Positions 14,865 through 41,268 of a stretch of DNA of 64,000 bases are shown in pieces. Both the position numbers and the translations under genes were made by a program. Position 1 is the stretch's first letter, and each line of letters starts with the position of its first letter. Below the pieces are notes generated by a model, which saw only the letters and a program-made list of their open reading frames with translations, did no database searches and had not been told where the DNA came from. The DNA is from Shewanella livingstonensis (GTDB lineage Bacteria; Pseudomonadota; Gammaproteobacteria; Enterobacterales; Shewanellaceae): positions 2,056,001 through 2,120,000 of the forward strand of contig NZ_CP034015.1 of assembly GCF_003855395.1 (NCBI RefSeq). The letters run 5' to 3'.

Positions 14865-17342
14865 TTATATGCGATAAGTTAAGGTTAACTTAGCATTACG
14901 TTCTTCGCCGGGAAGGCCACCCAAAAACATCGCTTTGTCGTAGTATGATTTATTAAGTAAATTATTTAAGTTTAGTTGAATTTTGTAGCGTTCAACATCA
15001 TAACTAATCGCAGAATCTATCACGGTATAGGCCGGTACATAACCGTCCGGTATACCAAATGAGCTTGAGCTGGTGCTGCGCTCACCGACATATTCAGCCC
15101 CTAAGCTTACCGATACTGGCGCGGGTAAACTCAGTTCTGCTGCATAAGTCACCCAGGCACTTGCTGTAAGGTATGGCACGCCTTTCTGGTGTTGACCATA
15201 ATCACTGCTATTAGGATTTTGATTGTCACGAGCATCTTGGTAAACGCCATTAACGTTCACTTTCCACTGTTCATTTAAATTGGCATTTAAATCGAGCTCG
15301 ACGCCTTTAGTATCTTCACTGCCGTCGTAAAAATAAGGGTCTATTGTAGAGGTTACCGCACTGCTGTCGTAGTTAGGGTTACTGTAGGCAATATTAGTCC
15401 GTGATGATTTAAAAAAGACTAATGAGGCTAATAGTTGGTCATCAAACGCTTTGAAACGCACGCCTAAGTCATTACTGACCGATTCTGAGTCTTCGCGGTC
15501 GGCTTCATTGCCGGTAACATCGCCCAACACACTGTAGGCTGTACGACCTTTAGAGTGATTAACGAAAATTGAAACATCATCCGTTGGCATATACGTTAAG
15601 CCAAGATTGAAGGTAATTCCGTTATCTGTAGTGTCCGCTTCTGGTTGTGGCTCAGCTAAGCTTGAGCTGTAACGGGAATCAACGCCAAGATGTTCATAGG
15701 TTTGCTTAATTTCATTAAATGCCACCCCAATACGGCTGGTAAAGCCAGCACCAAGGTATCCGACATGTTGTACGCCTAAACCCCATGCGGTGACGGTTTT
15801 ATTGTAATTACTGGTCAGTAATGGATCGTAATCTTCAAATTCGCCTTCGGCCCAGTTGGGGTTACGAATATCGTAAATGTATGGCAGGGTACCTTGGTAA
15901 GATACATCGCCATTGCTGTCTTTTAATACGTAATCGGCATCCCAAATTGAGTATTGTTTGAAGCGAATTGTGCGGTCTTCAAAGTTAGCATTAACTAATA
16001 ATTCGTTACTGATATTGCCAATGTCAAAGTCGTAACGTAAGTCAGCAAAGTATTGCCAAGATTGTTCATCGGCAGAAACTTTACGATACTCCTGACGACG
16101 AGCTGCATAAGGATATAACACTTCATCTTCAACTAACGGCGCGCGTGGGTCTTGGTTAATGATGCCATTTCGTTCCCAATACACGTAGTTATACGCGCCA
16201 GTTTGGCGAGCAAAACTGGTTTCATAATTTCGGTATTGCAATTGTTGGTTTAAAAACAGGTTATCGGTTAAGTAAATGTTGTGAGTCAGTTTGAAACGTA
16301 ACTCTTCACCTTCGTTATCTTTTGCCATTGGTGAAATTAAGCCATTATGACCAAAATCGTAAGGTGTTTCACCATCTGATGCACTCAGTGAATTAGCCAG
16401 TTGTTGACGCTGCTCATCGGTGAGCTGCACGCCACTGCTGGTAGGGTCATTAACCAAATCTTGCCAACTTACCTGGTCTGCCGTTTTACCATCAACAGAA
16501 GCCGCATTATAAATCCGGATTGGGTGGCCAATGGAATCTACGGGAATAGAATCGTTTATGTAAGCGGTAGACAGCATGAGGTTTTGGTTGTCGTTCAACA
16601 CAAACTTTAGCGAGCCGTAGACTTCGTCGCGGTCGGTTCCTAAATCGCGGTATCCGTCACTGCGAGCACTTTTTGCTACCACACGATAGGCGACATCGTC
16701 AGTGACAGCACCTGTGCTATCAGCCATAAATGAATATGTGTCCCATTGACCCACTTCGGCTTCCATAACATGCTTACTGACAAACTCTGGCTTCTTTTCT
16801 ATTAAATTCATTACGCCGCCAGCGCTTCCCATTCCGTACAATCCGGTAGCAGGGCCTTTTAACACTTCAACCGAACTGACATTAGTGAGCGAACGGGTAG
16901 GGTTAAAGGTGTTGCCAAGTCCTGCGCCGCCATACATGCCGTCATAGGTGTAGTTTGCTCCTAGGCCTCGAATGACGAGGTTGTCACCAATACCGTAGTT
17001 GTTACCCGCTTGGGTCACACCACTGATATTACGAATTAAATCTTGCATGTTACTGACGCCTTGGGCATCGATTAATGCTTCGTCAACAATCACTACCGCC
17101 GCAGGCGTTTCCATCAGTGACATATCAGATTTAGTTGCTAAACCTGAGTTCATCACTACTTGGTTTTGTCGGCCATAAACCGTTATTCGTTCATAGTTGG
17201 CTGAGGGTGATGCATTGTCCGTATCATCTGAAGATTGCGCAGTAACCTCAGGTTGGGTAACTGGTGTTTGTGCGTGAGCATAAACGGGAAACAATACACT
17301 TTGACAAGCAAGGGCAAGTAGAGATAAACGTAATGGCGTCAT
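14865..17342 (-). CDS. TonB-dependent siderophore receptor
   Basis: 825-residue outer-membrane receptor. A signal peptide (about 1-24, cleaved after YAHA) precedes a short linker, an approximate TonB-box region (ERITVYG near 52-58), a plug domain (METPAAVVIVDEALI, LIRNISGVTQ, RGLGANYTYDG, SVEVLKGPATGLYGMGSAGGVMN) and a 22-strand barrel ending in the aromatic-last signature LTLTYRI. The plug resembles ferric siderophore receptors of the FhuE/FpvA type without an N-terminal signalling domain. A Fur box lies just upstream. No siderophore synthesis genes are nearby, so it may scavenge a foreign siderophore. Confidence 0.92.
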   Translation of the reverse strand: MTPLRLSLLALACQSVLFPVYAHAQTPVTQPEVTAQSSDDTDNASPSANYERITVYGRQNQVVMNSGLATKSDMSLMETPAAVVIVDEALIDAQGVSNMQDLIRNISGVTQAGNNYGIGDNLVIRGLGANYTYDGMYGGAGLGNTFNPTRSLTNVSSVEVLKGPATGLYGMGSAGGVMNLIEKKPEFVSKHVMEAEVGQWDTYSFMADSTGAVTDDVAYRVVAKSARSDGYRDLGTDRDEVYGSLKFVLNDNQNLMLSTAYINDSIPVDSIGHPIRIYNAASVDGKTADQVSWQDLVNDPTSSGVQLTDEQRQQLANSLSASDGETPYDFGHNGLISPMAKDNEGEELRFKLTHNIYLTDNLFLNQQLQYRNYETSFARQTGAYNYVYWERNGIINQDPRAPLVEDEVLYPYAARRQEYRKVSADEQSWQYFADLRYDFDIGNISNELLVNANFEDRTIRFKQYSIWDADYVLKDSNGDVSYQGTLPYIYDIRNPNWAEGEFEDYDPLLTSNYNKTVTAWGLGVQHVGYLGAGFTSRIGVAFNEIKQTYEHLGVDSRYSSSLAEPQPEADTTDNGITFNLGLTYMPTDDVSIFVNHSKGRTAYSVLGDVTGNEADREDSESVSNDLGVRFKAFDDQLLASLVFFKSSRTNIAYSNPNYDSSAVTSTIDPYFYDGSEDTKGVELDLNANLNEQWKVNVNGVYQDARDNQNPNSSDYGQHQKGVPYLTASAWVTYAAELSLPAPVSVSLGAEYVGERSTSSSSFGIPDGYVPAYTVIDSAISYDVERYKIQLNLNNLLNKSYYDKAMFLGGLPGEERNAKLTLTYRI

Positions 17343-33660: not shown

Positions 33661-36189
33661 ATGAGTTCAGTCACATTAACTGCTAAGGCAATTCGCCGTA
33701 GTTTACTAGCGGTAGCAGCAACAAGTGTCGCGACAACAGGCTTATTTTCTTCAGCAGCATTTGCTGCCGATGAACAGAAAGTTGAAAGAATCGAAGTAAC
33801 CGGTTCTCGTATTCAGCGTCAAGACATGGAAACTGCTTCTCCAGTTACCATTATCTCTGCAGAAGCTATTCGAGCAGAAGGTTTCACTTCAGTTGATCAA
33901 CTACTTCAAGCTCAAACGTCAATGGCCGGCGCTGCTGTTGGTTCTAGCACAAACAACGGTGCTGGCGGTGTTGCACAAGTTGACTTACGCGGTATGGGAG
34001 CTCAACGCACTCTTGTGCTGTTAAATGGCCGTCGTATGGTTAACTCTGGTTCAGGTGCTGACAGCTCTGTCGATTTGAACTCTATCCCTGTCGCGATGAT
34101 CTCTCGCGTTGAAATCTTGAAAGATGGCGCCTCAGCAGTATACGGTTCTGATGCAATTGCTGGTGTCGTTAACATCATCACCAAAAAAGATTTCGAAGGT
34201 TTCCAACTAGACCTTAACGGAAGTACAACCAGCGAAAGCGATGGTGATACTGGCGAAATTAGTGGTTTATATGGTTTTAATACAGATGGTGGTAACTACA
34301 CTGTCGGTGCAGCATATTCAAAGCGTGAAAGCGTTATACAGTCAGATCGTAGCTGGACAGAACCTGGCTACAGCTCATTCTTACCGACTGGTTCACTAGG
34401 CGGAAAAGTGCGCAATGACGCTGGAGAATGGGTTGCTCGCTCTACTGGTTATGATTACACCACTAGCAGCTATTATCAAACACCAAGCGAGCGTTACAGC
34501 TTGTTTGCTAACATGGTCCAAGAGCTAGATAATAATTTAGTGTTAACTGGTGATGCACTCTACACCAAACGTAAGTCTGATCAGCAATTAGCACCACAAC
34601 CTGCTGACGTTATGCTAAATGTATGTGGCGCTCCAGGCGTTGCTGCTGGTGCAGCATGTATTACAGTTGATCAAGCAATGACAACTGGCGGCATTGCTGC
34701 CGATGATACAGGACGAGTTAATTATCGTCGCCGTACTACTGATGCCGGTCCACGTATGTATTCTCAAGATACTGATACATTACGTCTATCTGCCGGTCTT
34801 GCCGGTGAAGTTGATATTAACACTGGTATGAACTGGGATGTTGCTTATACCTATGGTAAAAATAAGGCAGATTCTAAAGTAGAGAACTCAATCAATGCCA
34901 CTAATCTTAAGCAATCTGTTTATGCTAACCAAGATGCATGGTTCACAGGTGTTCCATTAACAGGTGAAATTGTTAATGACATTAGCTTTACTGACAATTC
35001 TGATGGCGGTAATGAGCAACATGTTGTTTCTGCTGGTTTAACAGGTGAATTGTTTGACGTAAGTGCGGGTGCTGTTGCCTTTGCTATTGGTGCTGAATAC
35101 CGTTATGAAAGCGGTTATTTTAATCCTGACCCAGTAACCGTTGCTGGCGATAGCACTGCTGCACAACAAGATCCTACAGATGGTAACTATAATGTTATGT
35201 CTGTATTCCAAGAAGTCAGTGTTCCTTTTACTGAAAAATTAACCGGTGAATTTGCACTGCGTTATGACGATTATTCAACATTTGGTAAAGCGTCAACGTG
35301 GAAAGTCGGTTTAACGTATGAAGCCACTGATGATGTAATGCTTCGTGGTGTTGCTGCAACTGGTTTCCGCGCGCCTAGTATCAGCGAGTTATTTGGTGGT
35401 GATACTGGTTCTTACGACTACTTAGATGATCCTTGGGGAAATGCACAAGATCCACAGATTCTAGTTCGTTATACTTCTGATGATGATCTAAAAGCTGAAG
35501 AGTCAGACTCTTACACTGCTGGTATTGTGTATTCACCAAGCTATGTTGAAGGTTTATCATTAACCCTAGATTACTGGCGTTTTAAAGTGAGTAACGCTAT
35601 TACCCGTTTAGACGTTCAAGCTGGCCTAACTGAGTGTTTCGCGAATGCATCTGCTGCAGCATGTGAAACCTTTAATATTGGTTCAAATGGTGATTTGTCT
35701 AACTTAACTAACTCGTTAACCAACGTAGGTAGCCAAGACACTAGTGGTGTAGACTTCAACTTAGCGTATAACTTTGAAGCATTATCTCTAGATTGGAAAA
35801 TCAGCAATGATACTACGTATTTGTTGAACTTCGAACAAGAAGACAATGATTACACTAACAAGATTGACGGTAACTTTGGTGCGTATGCTGAAGTTCGTAA
35901 CAACTTCAGTATTCAAGCCGGTCAAGACAGCTGGAGTGTTAACTACTTCAACCGTTACATTGGTGAAATGGACGACCTAAATACAGGCGATAAAGTGGAT
36001 GCGATTCTGTATCACAACTTAGCTGGTACTTATTATGTGTCTGACATGATTAGCTTAAGTGCTGGTGTGAAAAACATCACTGATGAAGAGCCTTCAGGCG
36101 TATCTAACGGTAGTGATGGTGGTACTGTACCAGAAGTGTATGACACTATTGGTCGTCAGTACTACGGTGGCGTAACGGTTAAGTTCTAA
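33661..36189 (+). CDS. TonB-dependent receptor, organic-nutrient type
   Basis: 842-residue outer-membrane receptor. A signal peptide (1-35, AFAADE) is followed by a TonB box-like VERIEVTGSRI, a plug (SPVTIISAEAIRAEGF, VDLRGMGAQRTLVLLNGRRM, VEILKDGASAVYGSDAIAGVVNIIT) and a 22-strand barrel ending YYGGVTVKF. The LVLLNGRR and DSSVDLNSIP plug form is typical of receptors in Shewanella and relatives that import carbohydrates, peptides or nucleosides more often than siderophores. CRP control fits that. AGGGAG lies 7 nt before the ATG. Substrate cannot be named from sequence. Confidence 0.92.
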   Translation: MSSVTLTAKAIRRSLLAVAATSVATTGLFSSAAFAADEQKVERIEVTGSRIQRQDMETASPVTIISAEAIRAEGFTSVDQLLQAQTSMAGAAVGSSTNNGAGGVAQVDLRGMGAQRTLVLLNGRRMVNSGSGADSSVDLNSIPVAMISRVEILKDGASAVYGSDAIAGVVNIITKKDFEGFQLDLNGSTTSESDGDTGEISGLYGFNTDGGNYTVGAAYSKRESVIQSDRSWTEPGYSSFLPTGSLGGKVRNDAGEWVARSTGYDYTTSSYYQTPSERYSLFANMVQELDNNLVLTGDALYTKRKSDQQLAPQPADVMLNVCGAPGVAAGAACITVDQAMTTGGIAADDTGRVNYRRRTTDAGPRMYSQDTDTLRLSAGLAGEVDINTGMNWDVAYTYGKNKADSKVENSINATNLKQSVYANQDAWFTGVPLTGEIVNDISFTDNSDGGNEQHVVSAGLTGELFDVSAGAVAFAIGAEYRYESGYFNPDPVTVAGDSTAAQQDPTDGNYNVMSVFQEVSVPFTEKLTGEFALRYDDYSTFGKASTWKVGLTYEATDDVMLRGVAATGFRAPSISELFGGDTGSYDYLDDPWGNAQDPQILVRYTSDDDLKAEESDSYTAGIVYSPSYVEGLSLTLDYWRFKVSNAITRLDVQAGLTECFANASAAACETFNIGSNGDLSNLTNSLTNVGSQDTSGVDFNLAYNFEALSLDWKISNDTTYLLNFEQEDNDYTNKIDGNFGAYAEVRNNFSIQAGQDSWSVNYFNRYIGEMDDLNTGDKVDAILYHNLAGTYYVSDMISLSAGVKNITDEEPSGVSNGSDGGTVPEVYDTIGRQYYGGVTVKF

Positions 36190-37016: not shown

Positions 37017-37961
37017 TTATATAAGCGACCTGTGAGCATGCTGTAGAACCTTAACGATTTCTTCAGTTGTTTTGAACACTCTTAGCTCTCTAAATAGAGC
37101 ATCCGCTTCGGGATATTGACGATTCAAGTAGCTAAACCATTGTTTTATACGTGAAGGATAATAGTCAGACTTACGCCCATTAAGTTCTTTGTCGGTATAG
37201 GCCATAAGTAAGCTTAAGGTTTGTAGCCAACTAAATGGCGTCGCACCCGTTTTGATGGTATCGCCTAGATTAGGCAGCGATATGGCTCCTCGACCAATCA
37301 TTATACTGTCACAGCCAGTGACATCCATGCATCTGTGAGCATCAGCGGCATTCCAAATCTCTCCGTTAGCGATAACAGGAATTGGCAGGCGCTTTTTGAC
37401 TTCAGTAATATATTCCCAATATGCTGGAGGCTTATAACCGTCAGTTTTACTGCGAGCATGGATAGCGAGCTCTGTTGCACCTGCTTCATATACAGCTAAA
37501 GCATTTTCCATAAATAACGACTTATCCTCATAACCTAAACGGATTTTAGCGGTTACTGGGTGCTCTACAGGTACGGCATCACGCATGGCTTTGACGATAT
37601 TATAAATATTCTCAGGATATTGCAGTAATACTGCGCCGCCTTTGCTTTTATTGACAGTTTTAGCTGGGCAACCAAAATTTGCATCAACACCATTTGAGCC
37701 TAGCTCTATGGCTCTGATGGCATTTTGTGCCATCCACTCTGGTTCTTGACCTAACAGCTGAACACGTACAGGTGTTCCTGATGCGGTTAGCCCTTGATGA
37801 AGTAGCTCAGGGCACAATTTATAGAACACTTTATCTGGTATGAGTTGATTGACGACCCTGACAAATTCAGTCACAACCAGGTCAAATGGATTGATGGCAG
37901 ATAATATTTCACGCATATGGTCATCAACCACACCTTCCATTGGAGCTAAAATAACGCGCAC
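37017..37961 (-). CDS. dusC: tRNA-dihydrouridine(16) synthase DusC
   Basis: 314-residue FMN TIM-barrel enzyme that reduces a uridine in the tRNA D-loop. The catalytic cysteine is C98 in VDANFGCPAKTVNKSKGGA. The N-terminus RVILAPMEGVVDDHMREIL and FVRVVNQLIP resemble DusC rather than DusA or DusB, and the C-terminal RIKQWFSYLNRQYPEA helix is DusC-like. It is transcribed alone, divergent from the hvf operon. Confidence 0.93.
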   Translation of the reverse strand: MRVILAPMEGVVDDHMREILSAINPFDLVVTEFVRVVNQLIPDKVFYKLCPELLHQGLTASGTPVRVQLLGQEPEWMAQNAIRAIELGSNGVDANFGCPAKTVNKSKGGAVLLQYPENIYNIVKAMRDAVPVEHPVTAKIRLGYEDKSLFMENALAVYEAGATELAIHARSKTDGYKPPAYWEYITEVKKRLPIPVIANGEIWNAADAHRCMDVTGCDSIMIGRGAISLPNLGDTIKTGATPFSWLQTLSLLMAYTDKELNGRKSDYYPSRIKQWFSYLNRQYPEADALFRELRVFKTTEEIVKVLQHAHRSLI

Positions 37962-38289
37962 AAGTACACCTTGCTGAACTCAAAAGTGCGCTATTTTAGC
38001 GTGTTTATTATTTGATATCAGTACTAAATTACGATACGAGTTCTTTTGTCGATTAACTAAACAAATTCTTGCTAATAATCATATTGATAGCACTTTTGTT
38101 GTATTTATGTTAAATGTAGGTGGCATTAGTTTTGAGGCTTGCCTAGCAAGTATTTGTGTTAAATAAATAGATATTTTTCACATTTTTTTAATTTTTTTGC
38201 AATAAAATTTACTGACAGCAGGTCTCTTTAACCAAGCCGGCAATGATGTTGGTCACCCTACACAATAAAGATATAGGAAGATAATTATT
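37962..38289. other. Promoter region of the hvf operon and dusC
   Basis: 328 bp between divergent genes. It contains an inverted repeat CTTGC-CTA-GCAAG (38138-38150) and an AT-rich stretch just before the precursor gene. I do not recognise a CueR box or a specific sigma-factor promoter. AGGAAG (38275-38280) is the precursor ribosome site. Confidence 0.45.
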
Positions 38290-38772
38290 ATGAATTCAAT
38301 CAAACAAACTACTTTAGCGGTTGCATTAGGTTCTGTTGTAATGACTGCAGGCTTTTCTGCTCAAGTAGAAGCTAACCCATTTGGTTTTCAACAATTAACT
38401 TCTGGTTATCAAATTGATGGCGGAGAAGGCAAATGTGGTGAAGGCAAGTGCGGCGGCGACATGAAAAAGTCAGCCGAAAAAGCAGCTGAAGGTAAATGTG
38501 GCGAAGGCAAGTGCGGCGGCGACATGAAAAAGTCAGCCGAAAAAGCAGTTGAAGGTAAATGTGGCGAAGGCAAGTGCGGCGGCGACATGAAAAAGTCAGC
38601 CGAAAAAGCAGTTGAAGGTAAATGTGGCGAAGGTAAGTGCGGCGGCGATATGAAAAAGTCAGCCGAAAAAGCAGTTGAAGGTAAATGTGGCGAAGGCAAG
38701 TGCGGCGGCGACATGAAAAAATCAGCTGACAAAGCAGCAGAAGAGATGAAAAAATCTGTTGAAATAAAGTAA
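38290..38772 (+). CDS. hvfA: HvfA/bufferin-type RiPP precursor with ten EGKCG motifs
   Basis: 160 residues: a Sec signal peptide (1-28, cleavage after VEA), a short linker (NPFGFQQLTSGYQIDGG), then five 21-residue units, each starting EGKCGEGKCGGDMKKSA, and a short EEMKKSVEIK tail. There are ten cysteines, all in EGKCG. In Haemophilus influenzae HvfA, cysteines in EGKCG motifs are converted by HvfB/HvfC to oxazolone-thioamide pairs that bind copper; bufferins are a related secreted class. The same chemistry is inferred here. The modified peptide would end in the periplasm and chelate copper. The gene is followed by a hairpin and then by the DUF692 and DUF2063 genes. Confidence 0.92.
   Translation: MNSIKQTTLAVALGSVVMTAGFSAQVEANPFGFQQLTSGYQIDGGEGKCGEGKCGGDMKKSAEKAAEGKCGEGKCGGDMKKSAEKAVEGKCGEGKCGGDMKKSAEKAVEGKCGEGKCGGDMKKSAEKAVEGKCGEGKCGGDMKKSADKAAEEMKKSVEIK
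38425..38739 (+). repeat. Five 63-bp tandem repeats inside hvfA
   Basis: Units at 38425, 38488, 38551, 38614 and 38677, each exactly 63 bp (21 codons). They are almost identical in DNA, differing mainly at the last codon (gct/gtt/gca), a few third positions and one gat/gac. This implies recent duplication or gene conversion, and copy number may vary in frame. Confidence 0.95.
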
Positions 38773-38843
38773 GGTAAATATGTGGTCAGAATAATTGACT
38801 ACTGTCTTTTGATACTATCTTAATTTATGTTATTTACTGCAAC

Positions 38844-38880
38844 TAAGGCCTGATAATCAGGCCTTAATTTTATCTATTTT
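38844..38880 (+). terminator. Intercistronic hairpin between hvfA and hvfB
   Basis: Stem TAAGGCCTGA/TCAGGCCTTA with a three-base loop (38854-38856), followed by a T-rich but interrupted tract. It is likely a partial terminator or a 3' stabiliser, letting the precursor be made in excess of its modifying enzymes. Confidence 0.7.
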
Positions 38881-38900
38881 TTACGGTTAAAGGACGCATT

Positions 38901-39764
38901 ATGTCTATTCAGCATCACAATTTTCTTGATCCGGCCAAGGTTGGGTTAGGGCTTCGTCGCGAAATGCTGGATGAATTTTGCCAGCATGTACCATCAGCAA
39001 TTGAGTTTTTTGAGGTTGCGCCTGAAAATTGGATGACATTAGGTGGTAAGTTTGGCCGCCAGTTTACACAATTAACCGAGCAGCATACTTTTTTTTGTCA
39101 TGGGTTATCATTGTCTATTGGCAGTCCACAAGCATTAGATATTTCGTTCGTTCAAAATATAAAACACTTTTTAGACCGTCATAATATTAATATTTATTCA
39201 GAACACTTAAGTTATTGTTCCGGAACGGGGCATATGTACGATCTTATGCCTATCCCATTTACCGATGACGCGGTAATCCATACAGCAAAAAGAATCAAGC
39301 AGGTTGAAGACATACTTGAGCGACCATTTATTTTAGAGAATGTTTCTTTTTATGCTGCTCCCGGTGCACAAATGAGCGAGGTCGAGTTTGTTAATGCTGT
39401 TTTACAGGAAGCTGACTGTAAACTGCTACTTGATGTGAATAATATCTATGTTAACTCGATTAACCATCAATACGATGCCAGTGCCTTTTTGGCCGCCATG
39501 CCAACCGAGCGAATTGAATATTTACATATTGCTGGACACTACCAAGAAGACGTTGATTTAATGGTGGATACTCACGGTGCCGATGTTATCGATCCTGTGT
39601 GGTCTTTATTACAGCAGTGTTATCAATTACATGGCGTGCACCCAACATTGCTAGAGCGTGATTTTAATATTCCTAAAACTGAAATCTTGTTAAATGAAAT
39701 TAATAAAATCCATCAGTATCAACAAAATGCATTAGCTCAACAGTCATCATTGAGGAAGGCATAA
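38901..39764 (+). CDS. hvfB: MNIO (DUF692) multinuclear iron oxidative enzyme, HvfB/BufB type
   Basis: 287-residue TIM-barrel enzyme of the DUF692 family. Conserved metal-site residues are visible in order: H67 (FCHGLSLS), E101 and H102 (SEHLSY), E146 (ENVSFY), D178 and N181 (LLDVNNIYVN), H209 and H213 (HIAGHY), D223 and H225 (DTHG) and E252 (LERDFNIP). Family members use a di- or tri-iron centre and O2 to rearrange peptidyl cysteines. With HvfC it should act on the EGKCG cysteines of the upstream precursor in the cytoplasm. AAGGA lies 6 nt before the ATG. Its stop overlaps the hvfC start (TAATG). Confidence 0.95.
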   Translation: MSIQHHNFLDPAKVGLGLRREMLDEFCQHVPSAIEFFEVAPENWMTLGGKFGRQFTQLTEQHTFFCHGLSLSIGSPQALDISFVQNIKHFLDRHNINIYSEHLSYCSGTGHMYDLMPIPFTDDAVIHTAKRIKQVEDILERPFILENVSFYAAPGAQMSEVEFVNAVLQEADCKLLLDVNNIYVNSINHQYDASAFLAAMPTERIEYLHIAGHYQEDVDLMVDTHGADVIDPVWSLLQQCYQLHGVHPTLLERDFNIPKTEILLNEINKIHQYQQNALAQQSSLRKA

Positions 39765-40528
39765 TGGATTTCATTGAAGTACAACAACAATTTATGGACT
39801 ATATCCGTGATCCTCGTTTGCCATTGCCCGAGGGGATTGAGCCTAGACGTATGAAAATCTATCGAGAATTATTTTTTAATAATATTGCAGGTTTTGTGTC
39901 GAGTGCGTTTCCGGTGTTGAAAAGTGTATATCAGGACGACCAATGGCAGGCCTTAGTACAACAATTTTTTGTAAGCCACGATTGTAAGACACCAATATTT
40001 GTTGAAATTGCCGGTGAGTTTTTAGCGTTTTTACAACATGAATACCAGATGACAGAAGATGATCCTGTTTTTATGTTGCAGTTAGCGCACTATGAATGGC
40101 TAGAATTATGTGTAGCCGTTGCCCCTGACACGCCAACGGCTCAATTGATCAATATTACCGAGCTAAGCCAACACAGATTATGTCTAGCGGCTTGTGCCAG
40201 AGTAGCGCAATATGCTTTTGATGTTCAACATATTAGTATTGATTACCAGCCGATTAAACCTACACCGCAAGCACACTTTTTCTGTGTATTTAGAGAGCTA
40301 ACTGACGAGGTGGCATTTTTGCAACTGACACCGTTAAGTGCTCAAGTATTGGCTTACATTGAACAAATGAGCTATTCGCAACAAAGTGTTACCGTGGATG
40401 CAATTATTATTTGGTTAAGTGAGCATTATCCACAAATGCTCAGTAAAACTTTGTTGTCAGGTTGTTTACCTTTATTACAACAGTTGGCTCAAAAGGGCAT
40501 TATTATTTCGTCACTTGATACAGAATAG
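39764..40528 (+). CDS. hvfC: DUF2063 partner protein, HvfC/BufC type
   Basis: 254 residues. The N-terminal DUF2063 helical domain (about 4-95, MDYIRDPRLPLPEGIEPRRM and FPVLKSVYQDDQWQALVQQFF) precedes an alpha/beta HvfC_C domain. In studied systems this partner forms a complex with the DUF692 enzyme and is needed for modification, probably by recruiting the precursor. It overlaps hvfB by one base, so the two are translationally coupled. Despite a historic 'putative DNA-binding' label, the context argues for a RiPP role. Confidence 0.93.
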   Translation: MDFIEVQQQFMDYIRDPRLPLPEGIEPRRMKIYRELFFNNIAGFVSSAFPVLKSVYQDDQWQALVQQFFVSHDCKTPIFVEIAGEFLAFLQHEYQMTEDDPVFMLQLAHYEWLELCVAVAPDTPTAQLINITELSQHRLCLAACARVAQYAFDVQHISIDYQPIKPTPQAHFFCVFRELTDEVAFLQLTPLSAQVLAYIEQMSYSQQSVTVDAIIIWLSEHYPQMLSKTLLSGCLPLLQQLAQKGIIISSLDTE

Positions 40529-40698
40529 TCTTATTAAATTTAAGGTTTTTATTTTGTGGATATAGGTCTAAAATAAGCCACTTTTTGCGATAAGCCTCAC
40601 GCCTATATTCGTTAAGTTAACCGTAAAGTTGACTCATCATAACGGATGAAAGATGTAAGCGATTGCAGTTACAACACCATCTTAATGTAGGAATAATC

Positions 40699-40818
40699 AT
40701 GAGTCAGCCTTTCAAAGACCCGTTTAACATTTTTTATTTTATCGGTTTTATTTTGGTTTTATTAATCCCAACATTACCAGCGAGTCTTTCATGGTTAAAA
40801 GCAACAGGATTAATTTAA
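40699..40818 (+). CDS. 39-residue single-pass membrane microprotein
   Basis: ATG at 40699 with TAGGAA 5 nt upstream. The product begins MSQPFKDPFN, continues through one strong membrane helix (IFYFIGFILVLLIPTL) and ends SLSWLKATGLI. A terminator follows 40 bp later. A possible -35 TTGACT occurs at 40629-40634, so it may be a separate unit rather than part of hvfABC. I do not recognise a family. The start signal, composition and terminator make it a credible small gene, but coding is unproven. Confidence 0.6.
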   Translation: MSQPFKDPFNIFYFIGFILVLLIPTLPASLSWLKATGLI

Positions 40819-40857
40819 CGCTTACTTCAGGTTAACCTGTCATGATATCGTCTTAAT

Positions 40858-40884
40858 AAACCACTCTTATAGAGTGGTTTTTTA
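40858..40884 (+). terminator. Terminator after the microprotein gene
   Basis: Stem AAACCACTCT/AGAGTGGTTT with a TAT loop (40868-40870), followed by TTTATTT. Confidence 0.85.
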
Positions 40885-40902
40885 TTTATTGCGAGGACGG
40901 TT

Positions 40903-41268
40903 ATGGCGGTAAAACGCGGTTTTTTTCTGATTATCGGTTTGTGCAGTCTTGCTCTAGGCTTAATTGGCATTGCATTGCCTTTATTACCGACAGTGCCATT
41001 TATTCTCCTGGCAGCATTTTGTTTTGCCCGCTCTAATGATCGACTTCACCATTGGTTAGTTACTCATCCTTGGTTTGCTGAAGGTATTAATCAGTGGCAA
41101 TCGAAACGAGCATTAAGTCGACCATTAAAGCAAAAAGCCATGTTAATGAGTTGCCTTAGCTTTATGGTGAGTATTATTATTGTGCCAATAGTTTGGGTGA
41201 AAATTATGCTGCTGTGTATGATGTTCGTATTATTATTTTTCTTGTGGCGGATCCCAGAGTTAGAATAA
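40903..41268 (+). CDS. ybaN: YbaN (DUF454) family inner membrane protein
   Basis: 121 residues with two to three membrane helices. The N-terminal half has the DUF454 signature GIALPLLPTVPFILLAAFCFARS followed by HPWFAEGINQW. Its function is unknown. It sits directly upstream of apt as in E. coli, where the order is ybaN-apt-dnaX. GAGGA lies before the ATG. Confidence 0.9.
   Translation: MAVKRGFFLIIGLCSLALGLIGIALPLLPTVPFILLAAFCFARSNDRLHHWLVTHPWFAEGINQWQSKRALSRPLKQKAMLMSCLSFMVSIIIVPIVWVKIMLLCMMFVLLFFLWRIPELE

Follow-up and report, generated by a model that had tools for sequence, protein, structure and literature searches.

The hvf-like operon in this stretch of the Shewanella livingstonensis genome (64 kb in all, hereafter the window) raises the question whether a precursor crowded with paired EGKCG motifs departs from the known copper-binding peptides or is an ordinary member of their family, and from what kind of promoter such a peptide would be made. 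The earlier note had described a secreted precursor with ten EGKCG motifs in five 21-residue units, followed by a DUF692 (MNIO) gene and a DUF2063 gene overlapping by one base. The motif layout and the gene order were borne out. The ten motifs are exact and form five EGKCGEGKCG pairs, and the end of hvfB and the start of hvfC have a single base in common (39764). The positions of all features are collected in Table 1.

Table 1. Features of the hvf locus, in window coordinates.
Feature	Position	Strand	Basis
Putative ECF-sigma-type promoter: TGCAAT, 17-nt spacer, GGTCT	38198..38225	+	Block conservation in 62 loci
Conserved 5'-leader block (CCAAGCCGGCAA ... TGTTGGTCACC), partly inverted repeat	38232..38257	+	MAFFT, 62 upstream regions
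hvfA-like RiPP precursor gene, 160 aa, ten EGKCG	38290..38772	+	ORF, family models, motif count
Five 63-bp tandem units, each EGKCGEGKCG plus 11-residue spacer	38425..38739	+	Repeat analysis, unit comparison
Conserved hairpin in the hvfA-hvfB gap; possible leaky terminator or 3'-end stabiliser	38844..38866	+	Conservation, covariation
hvfB: MNIO (DUF692) RiPP maturase, 287 aa	38901..39764	+	Family models, 3BWW match
hvfC: DUF2063/NGO1945_C partner protein, 254 aa	39764..40528	+	Family models, 3DEE match

The precursor begins with MNSIKQTTLAVALGSVVMTAGFSAQVEA, which resembles a signal peptide as judged by eye only, and continues through a short linker into five EGKCGEGKCGGDMKKSA(E/D)KA(A/V) units and a charged tail. 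The first pair lies at residue 46 and the last at residue 130. The tail that follows is 21 residues long, whereas most close relatives end no more than four residues after their last pair. At the DNA level, repeat analysis gave 5.0 copies of a 63-bp period at 38425-38737, with 96% matches. Two of the units agree at 63 of 63 bases and the least similar pair of units at 56 of 63, indicating that the array was copied recently or has been kept alike. Across the 72 genes with at least three pairs, the 30 nucleotides encoding a pair differed at a mean of 3.3 sites within a gene and 4.18 sites between genes; within the window's own hvfA the mean was 1.2.

Family models placed all three proteins in the HvfABC family, as had been claimed. 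The precursor scored 102.5 bits with NF050137 (NCBIfam KCGExKCG_twice), against a cut-off of 19.5. With the HvfA equivalog NF050188 it scored 85.9 bits, below the cut-off of 95, and was therefore placed in the wider EGKCG family and not in HvfA proper. Since only two of the ten relatives tested reached this cut-off and eight missed it, such a miss is usual in the group. The MNIO reached 440.3 bits with NF003818 (HvfB; cut-off 360) and 349.7 bits with PF05114 (cut-off 25), the latter also counted toward membership of the HvfB family, and HvfC reached 279.8 bits with NF050145 (cut-off 142). The scores with NF050137, NF003818 and NF050145 are well beyond what chance would give. By sequence comparison, HvfB matched the solved protein 3BWW (E 1e-70) and HvfC matched 3DEE (E 3.5e-10). 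The H. influenzae HvfB is inactive after alanine changes at N175, D242 or H244 of its site 3 (PMC13419390); these residues correspond to N180, D223 and H225 here, mapped by hand through the 3BWW alignment with their identities checked. The label "bufferin-type" holds for the presumed function only, since no BufA model of the NCBIfam scan matched the precursor and the MNIO scored 263.5 bits with the MNIO_BufB model, below its cut-off of 310.

We then compared the window precursor with those of 79 of its 80 named relatives, each taken as the ORF ahead of hvfB (L051 was left out for a run of N). Cysteines were counted from the end of the signal region, except in L059 and L060, which have no such anchor and were counted whole. 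Cysteines at a five-residue spacing formed 479 runs in these 80 precursors; of these runs 395 were pairs, 74 were single, 9 were triple and one was quadruple. At least one pair was present in 79 of the 80 precursors; 50 had pairs only, and 75 carried the exact EGKCGEGKCG. Compared with the ten cysteines of the window precursor, 47 of the 79 relatives have more, 16 an equal number and 16 fewer, with a maximum of 24. Successive runs, measured from the last pair of one to the following run, stood 17 residues apart in 176 and 21 residues apart in 55 of 342 cases; 16 of the 80 precursors, mostly those of close relatives, have one or more 21-residue steps.

Published sequences give the same picture. 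H. influenzae HvfA has three AEGKCGEGKCG motifs. About 2,000 EGKCG-type proteins of 31-506 residues, with up to 58 cysteines, have been reported, one type having a 17-residue repeat with two EGKCG each (PMC12452194), for which a beta-helix is the published model. In vitro, modification was seen with a FonA peptide of two EGKCG repeats and not with a one-repeat peptide (PMC12668002), which offers a plain reason for pairs. We therefore reject the view of the earlier note that pairing without a spacer makes a notable variant. As the name of the model KCGExKCG_twice, the HvfA motifs and the counts above attest, the claimed peculiarity is the norm and hallmark of the family, and precursors of this layout beside DUF692 genes, for which a search had been proposed, are common. 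Nor is processivity along adjoining sites an open question peculiar to this locus, as sequential processing, with the threading of a long precursor through the enzyme, has already been raised in print (PMC12452194).

Judged by its genes and motifs, the operon is a member of the EGKCG/oxazolin group (captophorins, Lys-Cys group). The oxazolin system HvfABC(X) of nontypeable H. influenzae also has a paired-EGKCG precursor, secreted there and predicted to be so here, and an MNIO with a DUF2063/RRE partner, but its precursor has six modifiable cysteines against the ten, in 21-residue units, found here; its operon contains a DoxX gene (hvfX), whereas in this genome DoxX is remote and has the same promoter block. 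The captophorins fontiphorin (FonABC) and gonophorin also combine EGKCG repeats with an MNIO-PME1 pair, and from this likeness 5-thiooxazoles would be expected here; FonA, with seven modification sites by the account of its paper, differs from the window precursor in repeat layout (PMC12668002). The bulbicupramide operon mmrABC of Microbulbifer is similar in its two-cysteine EGKCG cassettes, its MNIO and DUF2063 genes and its genus-wide conservation, but has five to eight cysteines and belongs to a different genus. In the Buf_EGKCG/oxazolin family (PMC12452194) each repeat has two EGKCG and the number of repeats varies, as here, although those repeats are 17 residues long and ours 21. Bufferins BufA1 and BufA2, multi-cysteine copper peptides with a signal peptide that are made by an MNIO and a DUF2063 protein, resemble what is predicted for this operon, but they belong to other precursor families.

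As to the chemistry, the earlier note had named oxazolone-thioamide pairs, a structure that reportedly stands in the title of a 2024 report. This assignment is outdated, the HvfA product having been reassigned to 5-thiooxazole (PMC12668002, PMC13419390). Copper binding has been reported for oxazolin, gonophorin and bulbicupramide. For the window peptide, both modification and copper binding are predicted by analogy with these homologues.

The operon is well conserved. An HvfB match was found in 95 of 97 Shewanella genomes, the best-scoring named relatives being S. sp. SG41-4, S. basaltis and S. frigidimarina, with HvfB identities of 87-89%. A precursor ORF ahead of hvfB and hvfC after it were present in 81 of 81 loci, the window counted; dusC lies on one flank in 80 of these and apt-dnaX on the other in 76, the misses including short contigs. 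Given this constant synteny, the operon is an old resident of a fixed site, in Pseudoalteromonas as well. The same genome has a separate operon for a two-domain BufA2 precursor, a BufB maturase and a divergent partner protein, so that two peptide classes are probably made.

The 128-bp gap between hvfA and hvfB contains a terminator-like hairpin that was absent from the earlier account. Of 81 A-B gaps, 68 have a perfect stem of eight or more pairs, G-U counted, around a loop of 3-6. Dinucleotide shuffles had such a stem in 64 of 810 cases, and the regions ahead of hvfA in 15 of 81. With MAFFT we aligned 37 of the 54 distinct A-B stretches that measure at most 170 nt, and all nine invariant columns fell inside the hairpin. 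Across its ten pairs 93.2% of cells are paired and 43 are double-changed, where shuffles gave 14.5 (sd 2.8); the covariation was 0.399, as against 0.180 in shuffles and no more than 0.097 in slid registers. These values are biased toward the hairpin by the drawing of the structure from the window and by the relatedness of the loci, kinship being ignored by the shuffles. Five pairs showed at least one double change, a count not above that of the shuffles (mean 4.1; reached in 99 of 500). The T-tails are modest, and an Rfam scan of 37900-41000 gave no element at gathering score. The hairpin may act as a leaky terminator or a 3'-end stabiliser, which would raise the precursor over the enzymes.

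A second conserved feature lies upstream of hvfA. In 62 Shewanella and Parashewanella loci, TGMAAT-N17-GGTCT was found exactly in 58 and with one mismatch in four, while six of 1240 mononucleotide shuffles came within one mismatch, a control that overstates significance because the pattern was derived from the same related hvfA loci; the independent places are those that follow. Among 18 outgroup hvfA loci, 11 had at most one mismatch at spacing 17, a level that no shuffle out of 360 reached; six of the remaining seven showed, by eye, TGAAAG at spacing 16. Locus L101 is in neither set. Promoters of the sigma-70 type were not enriched: the count was nine, where shuffled sequence would give 9.7. 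The shape of the block and the homologous systems make an ECF promoter likely.

The same block occurs elsewhere. Its own genome has 11 sites that match without mismatch, against five for the reversed control. For five of the 11 sites a start codon follows within roughly 200 nt, namely that of hvfA, of a DoxX gene, of an OmpR-type response regulator (followed by a kinase-like gene, by eye), of a cupredoxin-like gene whose Pfam score is below cut-off, and of thioredoxin; the other six are not so placed. DoxX is encoded at two places in this genome, both outside the window and the operon, and it is the nearer gene, about 1.06 Mb from hvf, that has the block. Of 30 DoxX loci, 29 have the block upstream with at most one mismatch (shuffles 4 of 600). 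The DoxX site is a telling one, as DoxX (HvfX) belongs to the H. influenzae operon and is missing from this one. A longer pattern gave 224 matches across 94 genomes, against 80 for the reversed control. Of 30 scan loci fetched, 18 preceded hvfA (nine), doxX (two), the response regulator (three) or a periplasmic peroxiredoxin-like gene (four, by eye), and 12 did not; a glutathione-reductase-like gene, also assigned by eye, was preceded by the block as well. This distribution suggests that hvfA, remote DoxX, redox and two-component genes form a split ECF-sigma regulon. No such regulon was described in the available text of the literature on Shewanella peptides, ECF/DoxX or DUF692/DUF2063, among the matches listed, nor was one found in that on DUF3379 or SO_3551; the regulon is not established as new.

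Which sigma factor might read the block was approached through homologous operons and through gene distribution. The genes of H. influenzae that match the hvf operon are RpoE2-dependent and induced under hypochlorite (PMC7907618), and DUF692/DUF2063 operons of Caulobacter are sigma-F-dependent under dichromate (PMC3511200). Across the genus we profiled three ECF genes, L202, L204 and L215, of a set that also has RpoE (L200), L201, L203, L205 and L206. L202, in 5 of 94 genomes, proved too rare, and L215, in 83 of 94, is missing from seven genomes that have hvfB. L204, which has a DUF3379 partner, is present in 90 of 94 genomes. In the four genomes lacking it, hvfB is missing (G037, G055) or represented only by a divergent 53-56% copy (G005, G073). 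L204 was also found in 15 of 15 further genomes (Parashewanella, Pseudoalteromonas, Algicola, Paraferrimonas, Marinifaba and Shewanella sp. OPT22), which cover 15 of the 21 loci made up of L058-L060 and the 18 outgroup loci, and a relative of the DUF3379 partner adjoins it in 23 of 23 fetched loci. This pair is the best candidate for the block, although unproven. L215 is missing from the same four genomes, plus seven others, so the agreement between L204 and hvfB may reflect shared ancestry in a distant clade rather than function. As a guess, L204 is the counterpart of SO_3551 of MR-1; the role of the SO_3551/SO_3550 pair is described as not clear (PMC8458880). The guessed sigma factor would differ from H. 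influenzae RpoE2, which has a small ZAS anti-sigma (PMC7907618) in place of a DUF3379 partner.

On these grounds hvfABC of Shewanella and its relatives may belong to a split stress regulon in which the ECF sigma factor, of a little-studied kind and with the DUF3379 protein as its anti-sigma, reads TGMAAT-N17-GGTCT and co-induces hvfABC with the remote DoxX gene, periplasmic peroxiredoxin, thioredoxin and the two-component system; we put this forward tentatively, with the odds somewhat against it. That the block is read instead by RpoE, another ECF factor or a non-sigma activator has close to an even chance. GGTCT is similar to the -10 element of RpoE, and the distribution of L204 may be a clade effect, as noted. 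A search that included L201, L202 and L205 found no ECF gene downstream of any of the 11 exact sites, so that autoregulation left no sign; among the ECF genes passing a crude DxxQE filter (L200, L203, L204, L206 and L215), the best upstream block has two to four mismatches each. Against RpoE and RpoE2 stand the published S. oneidensis sites, GAACTT with a TC-type element at spacing 16 or 17 and TGATCC with CGTAAT, respectively (PMC4336711); the hvfA block, at spacing 17, is unlike both, and unlike the sigma-F site GTAACC-N16-CGAA of Caulobacter (PMC3511200).

Taken together, we favour, at a probability of roughly 80%, the reading that the operon is a Shewanella HvfABC/oxazolin (captophorin) system for a modified, periplasmic, copper-buffering peptide, made in an excess set by the hairpin and expressed from an ECF-type promoter of the kind found at DoxX. 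The operon would be turned on from TGMAAT-N17-GGTCT, probably by an ECF sigma factor and jointly with the remote DoxX gene, and the hairpin after hvfA would end or protect most transcripts, leaving precursor in excess over the enzymes. HvfC would recognise the precursor in the cytoplasm and there, together with the iron enzyme HvfB, would turn as many as ten cysteines per chain, those of the EGKCG pairs, into 5-thiooxazoles. A Sec-type signal peptide would then take the chain to the periplasm, to bind copper and buffer it during envelope stress.

Three other functions were weighed against copper buffering. The modified peptide could serve mainly against periplasmic oxidative or thiol stress, with copper binding secondary, as the block before the DoxX, thioredoxin, glutathione-reductase-like and peroxiredoxin-like genes and the hypochlorite induction in H. 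influenzae might suggest. We regard this as unlikely, since the three characterised relatives are reported to bind copper and the cupredoxin-like gene has the block too. Copper by itself causes thiol stress, which makes the two roles hard to separate. A methanobactin-like chalkophore, released and retaken for copper acquisition, is improbable: a distant similarity to MbnB (36.3 bits) and the TonB receptor genes in the window (33661-36189, by eye; 14865-17342, by Pfam) would fit it, but the MbnB score is far below the cut-off of 325, MbnA and MbnC had no match among the seven proteins scanned, and the block is absent near either receptor gene. That the repeat gene encodes an unmodified metal-storage protein and hvfBC act on a different substrate is very improbable, because, although the hairpin may let hvfA be transcribed largely alone, a two-repeat EGKCG peptide is a working Fon substrate (PMC12668002), a precursor ORF precedes hvfB at every locus, and the genome's second MNIO has a BufA2 precursor of its own.

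The operon itself is a further, well-conserved example of a family already known to be large, and it comes from a genus that is genetically tractable. What is new in this analysis is the conserved block before hvfA, its recurrence at the remote DoxX gene and the covarying hairpin between hvfA and hvfB. The common promoter block makes a regulon of an ECF sigma factor open to test and gives a handle on when the peptides are made and whether DoxX works alongside them; this regulatory layer is the aspect that may interest specialists. If the ECF/DUF3379 assignment is true, MNIO copper peptides would stand under at least three envelope-stress ECF sigma factors, namely sigma-F of Caulobacter, RpoE2 of Haemophilus and the ECF/DUF3379 factor.

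The closest HvfB found (92%) lies in genome G049, at locus L003, and the precursor encoded beside it consists mainly of single EGKCG units rather than pairs, which shows that the repeat layout varies among near relatives. In the precursors of two other hvf loci (L021 and L051), a run of N breaks the repeat array, and repeat copy numbers taken from draft assemblies may therefore be unreliable.

Further features of the source genome are collected in the table below. The conserved block in the 5' leader of hvfA is a possible hairpin. Family model scans of the hydrophobic ORF gave no match over cut-off. In the second MNIO system, the same kind of scan assigned the precursor to BufA2 (NF050166, 139.2 bits against a cut-off of 60, in two matched stretches) and the MNIO to BufB (387.2 against 310), whereas the divergent partner protein reached 37.7 on the HvfC model, below its cut-off.

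Features of the source genome (G000; L, fetched locus; C1, contig)
Feature	Location	Remark
Conserved block GCAAGCC(A)GCAA ... TGTTGGT	window 38232-38257	hvfA 5' leader; Shewanella alignment
Hydrophobic ORF, 39 residues	window 40699-40818	between hvfC and DUF454 gene
Cupredoxin-like protein gene	L132:2186-2857	Pfam below cut-off; hvfA promoter block upstream
Thioredoxin gene	L133:1935-2285	hvfA promoter block upstream
Second system, BufA2/BufB type	L118:4688-7042 (G000:C1, about 1434.7-1437.0 kb)	

Among the other genomes, the hvfB match of G035 (C1:2993984-2994830) is split into two segments that overlap, apparently because the copy is disrupted or the sequence was misassembled. Divergent hvfB copies (43-56%) were found in G003, G010, G005, and G073. 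A divergent DoxX gene lies on the same strand as hvfB in all four, at about 0.8 kb in G003, G005, and G073 and somewhat farther in G010, an arrangement that looks like the four-gene layout.
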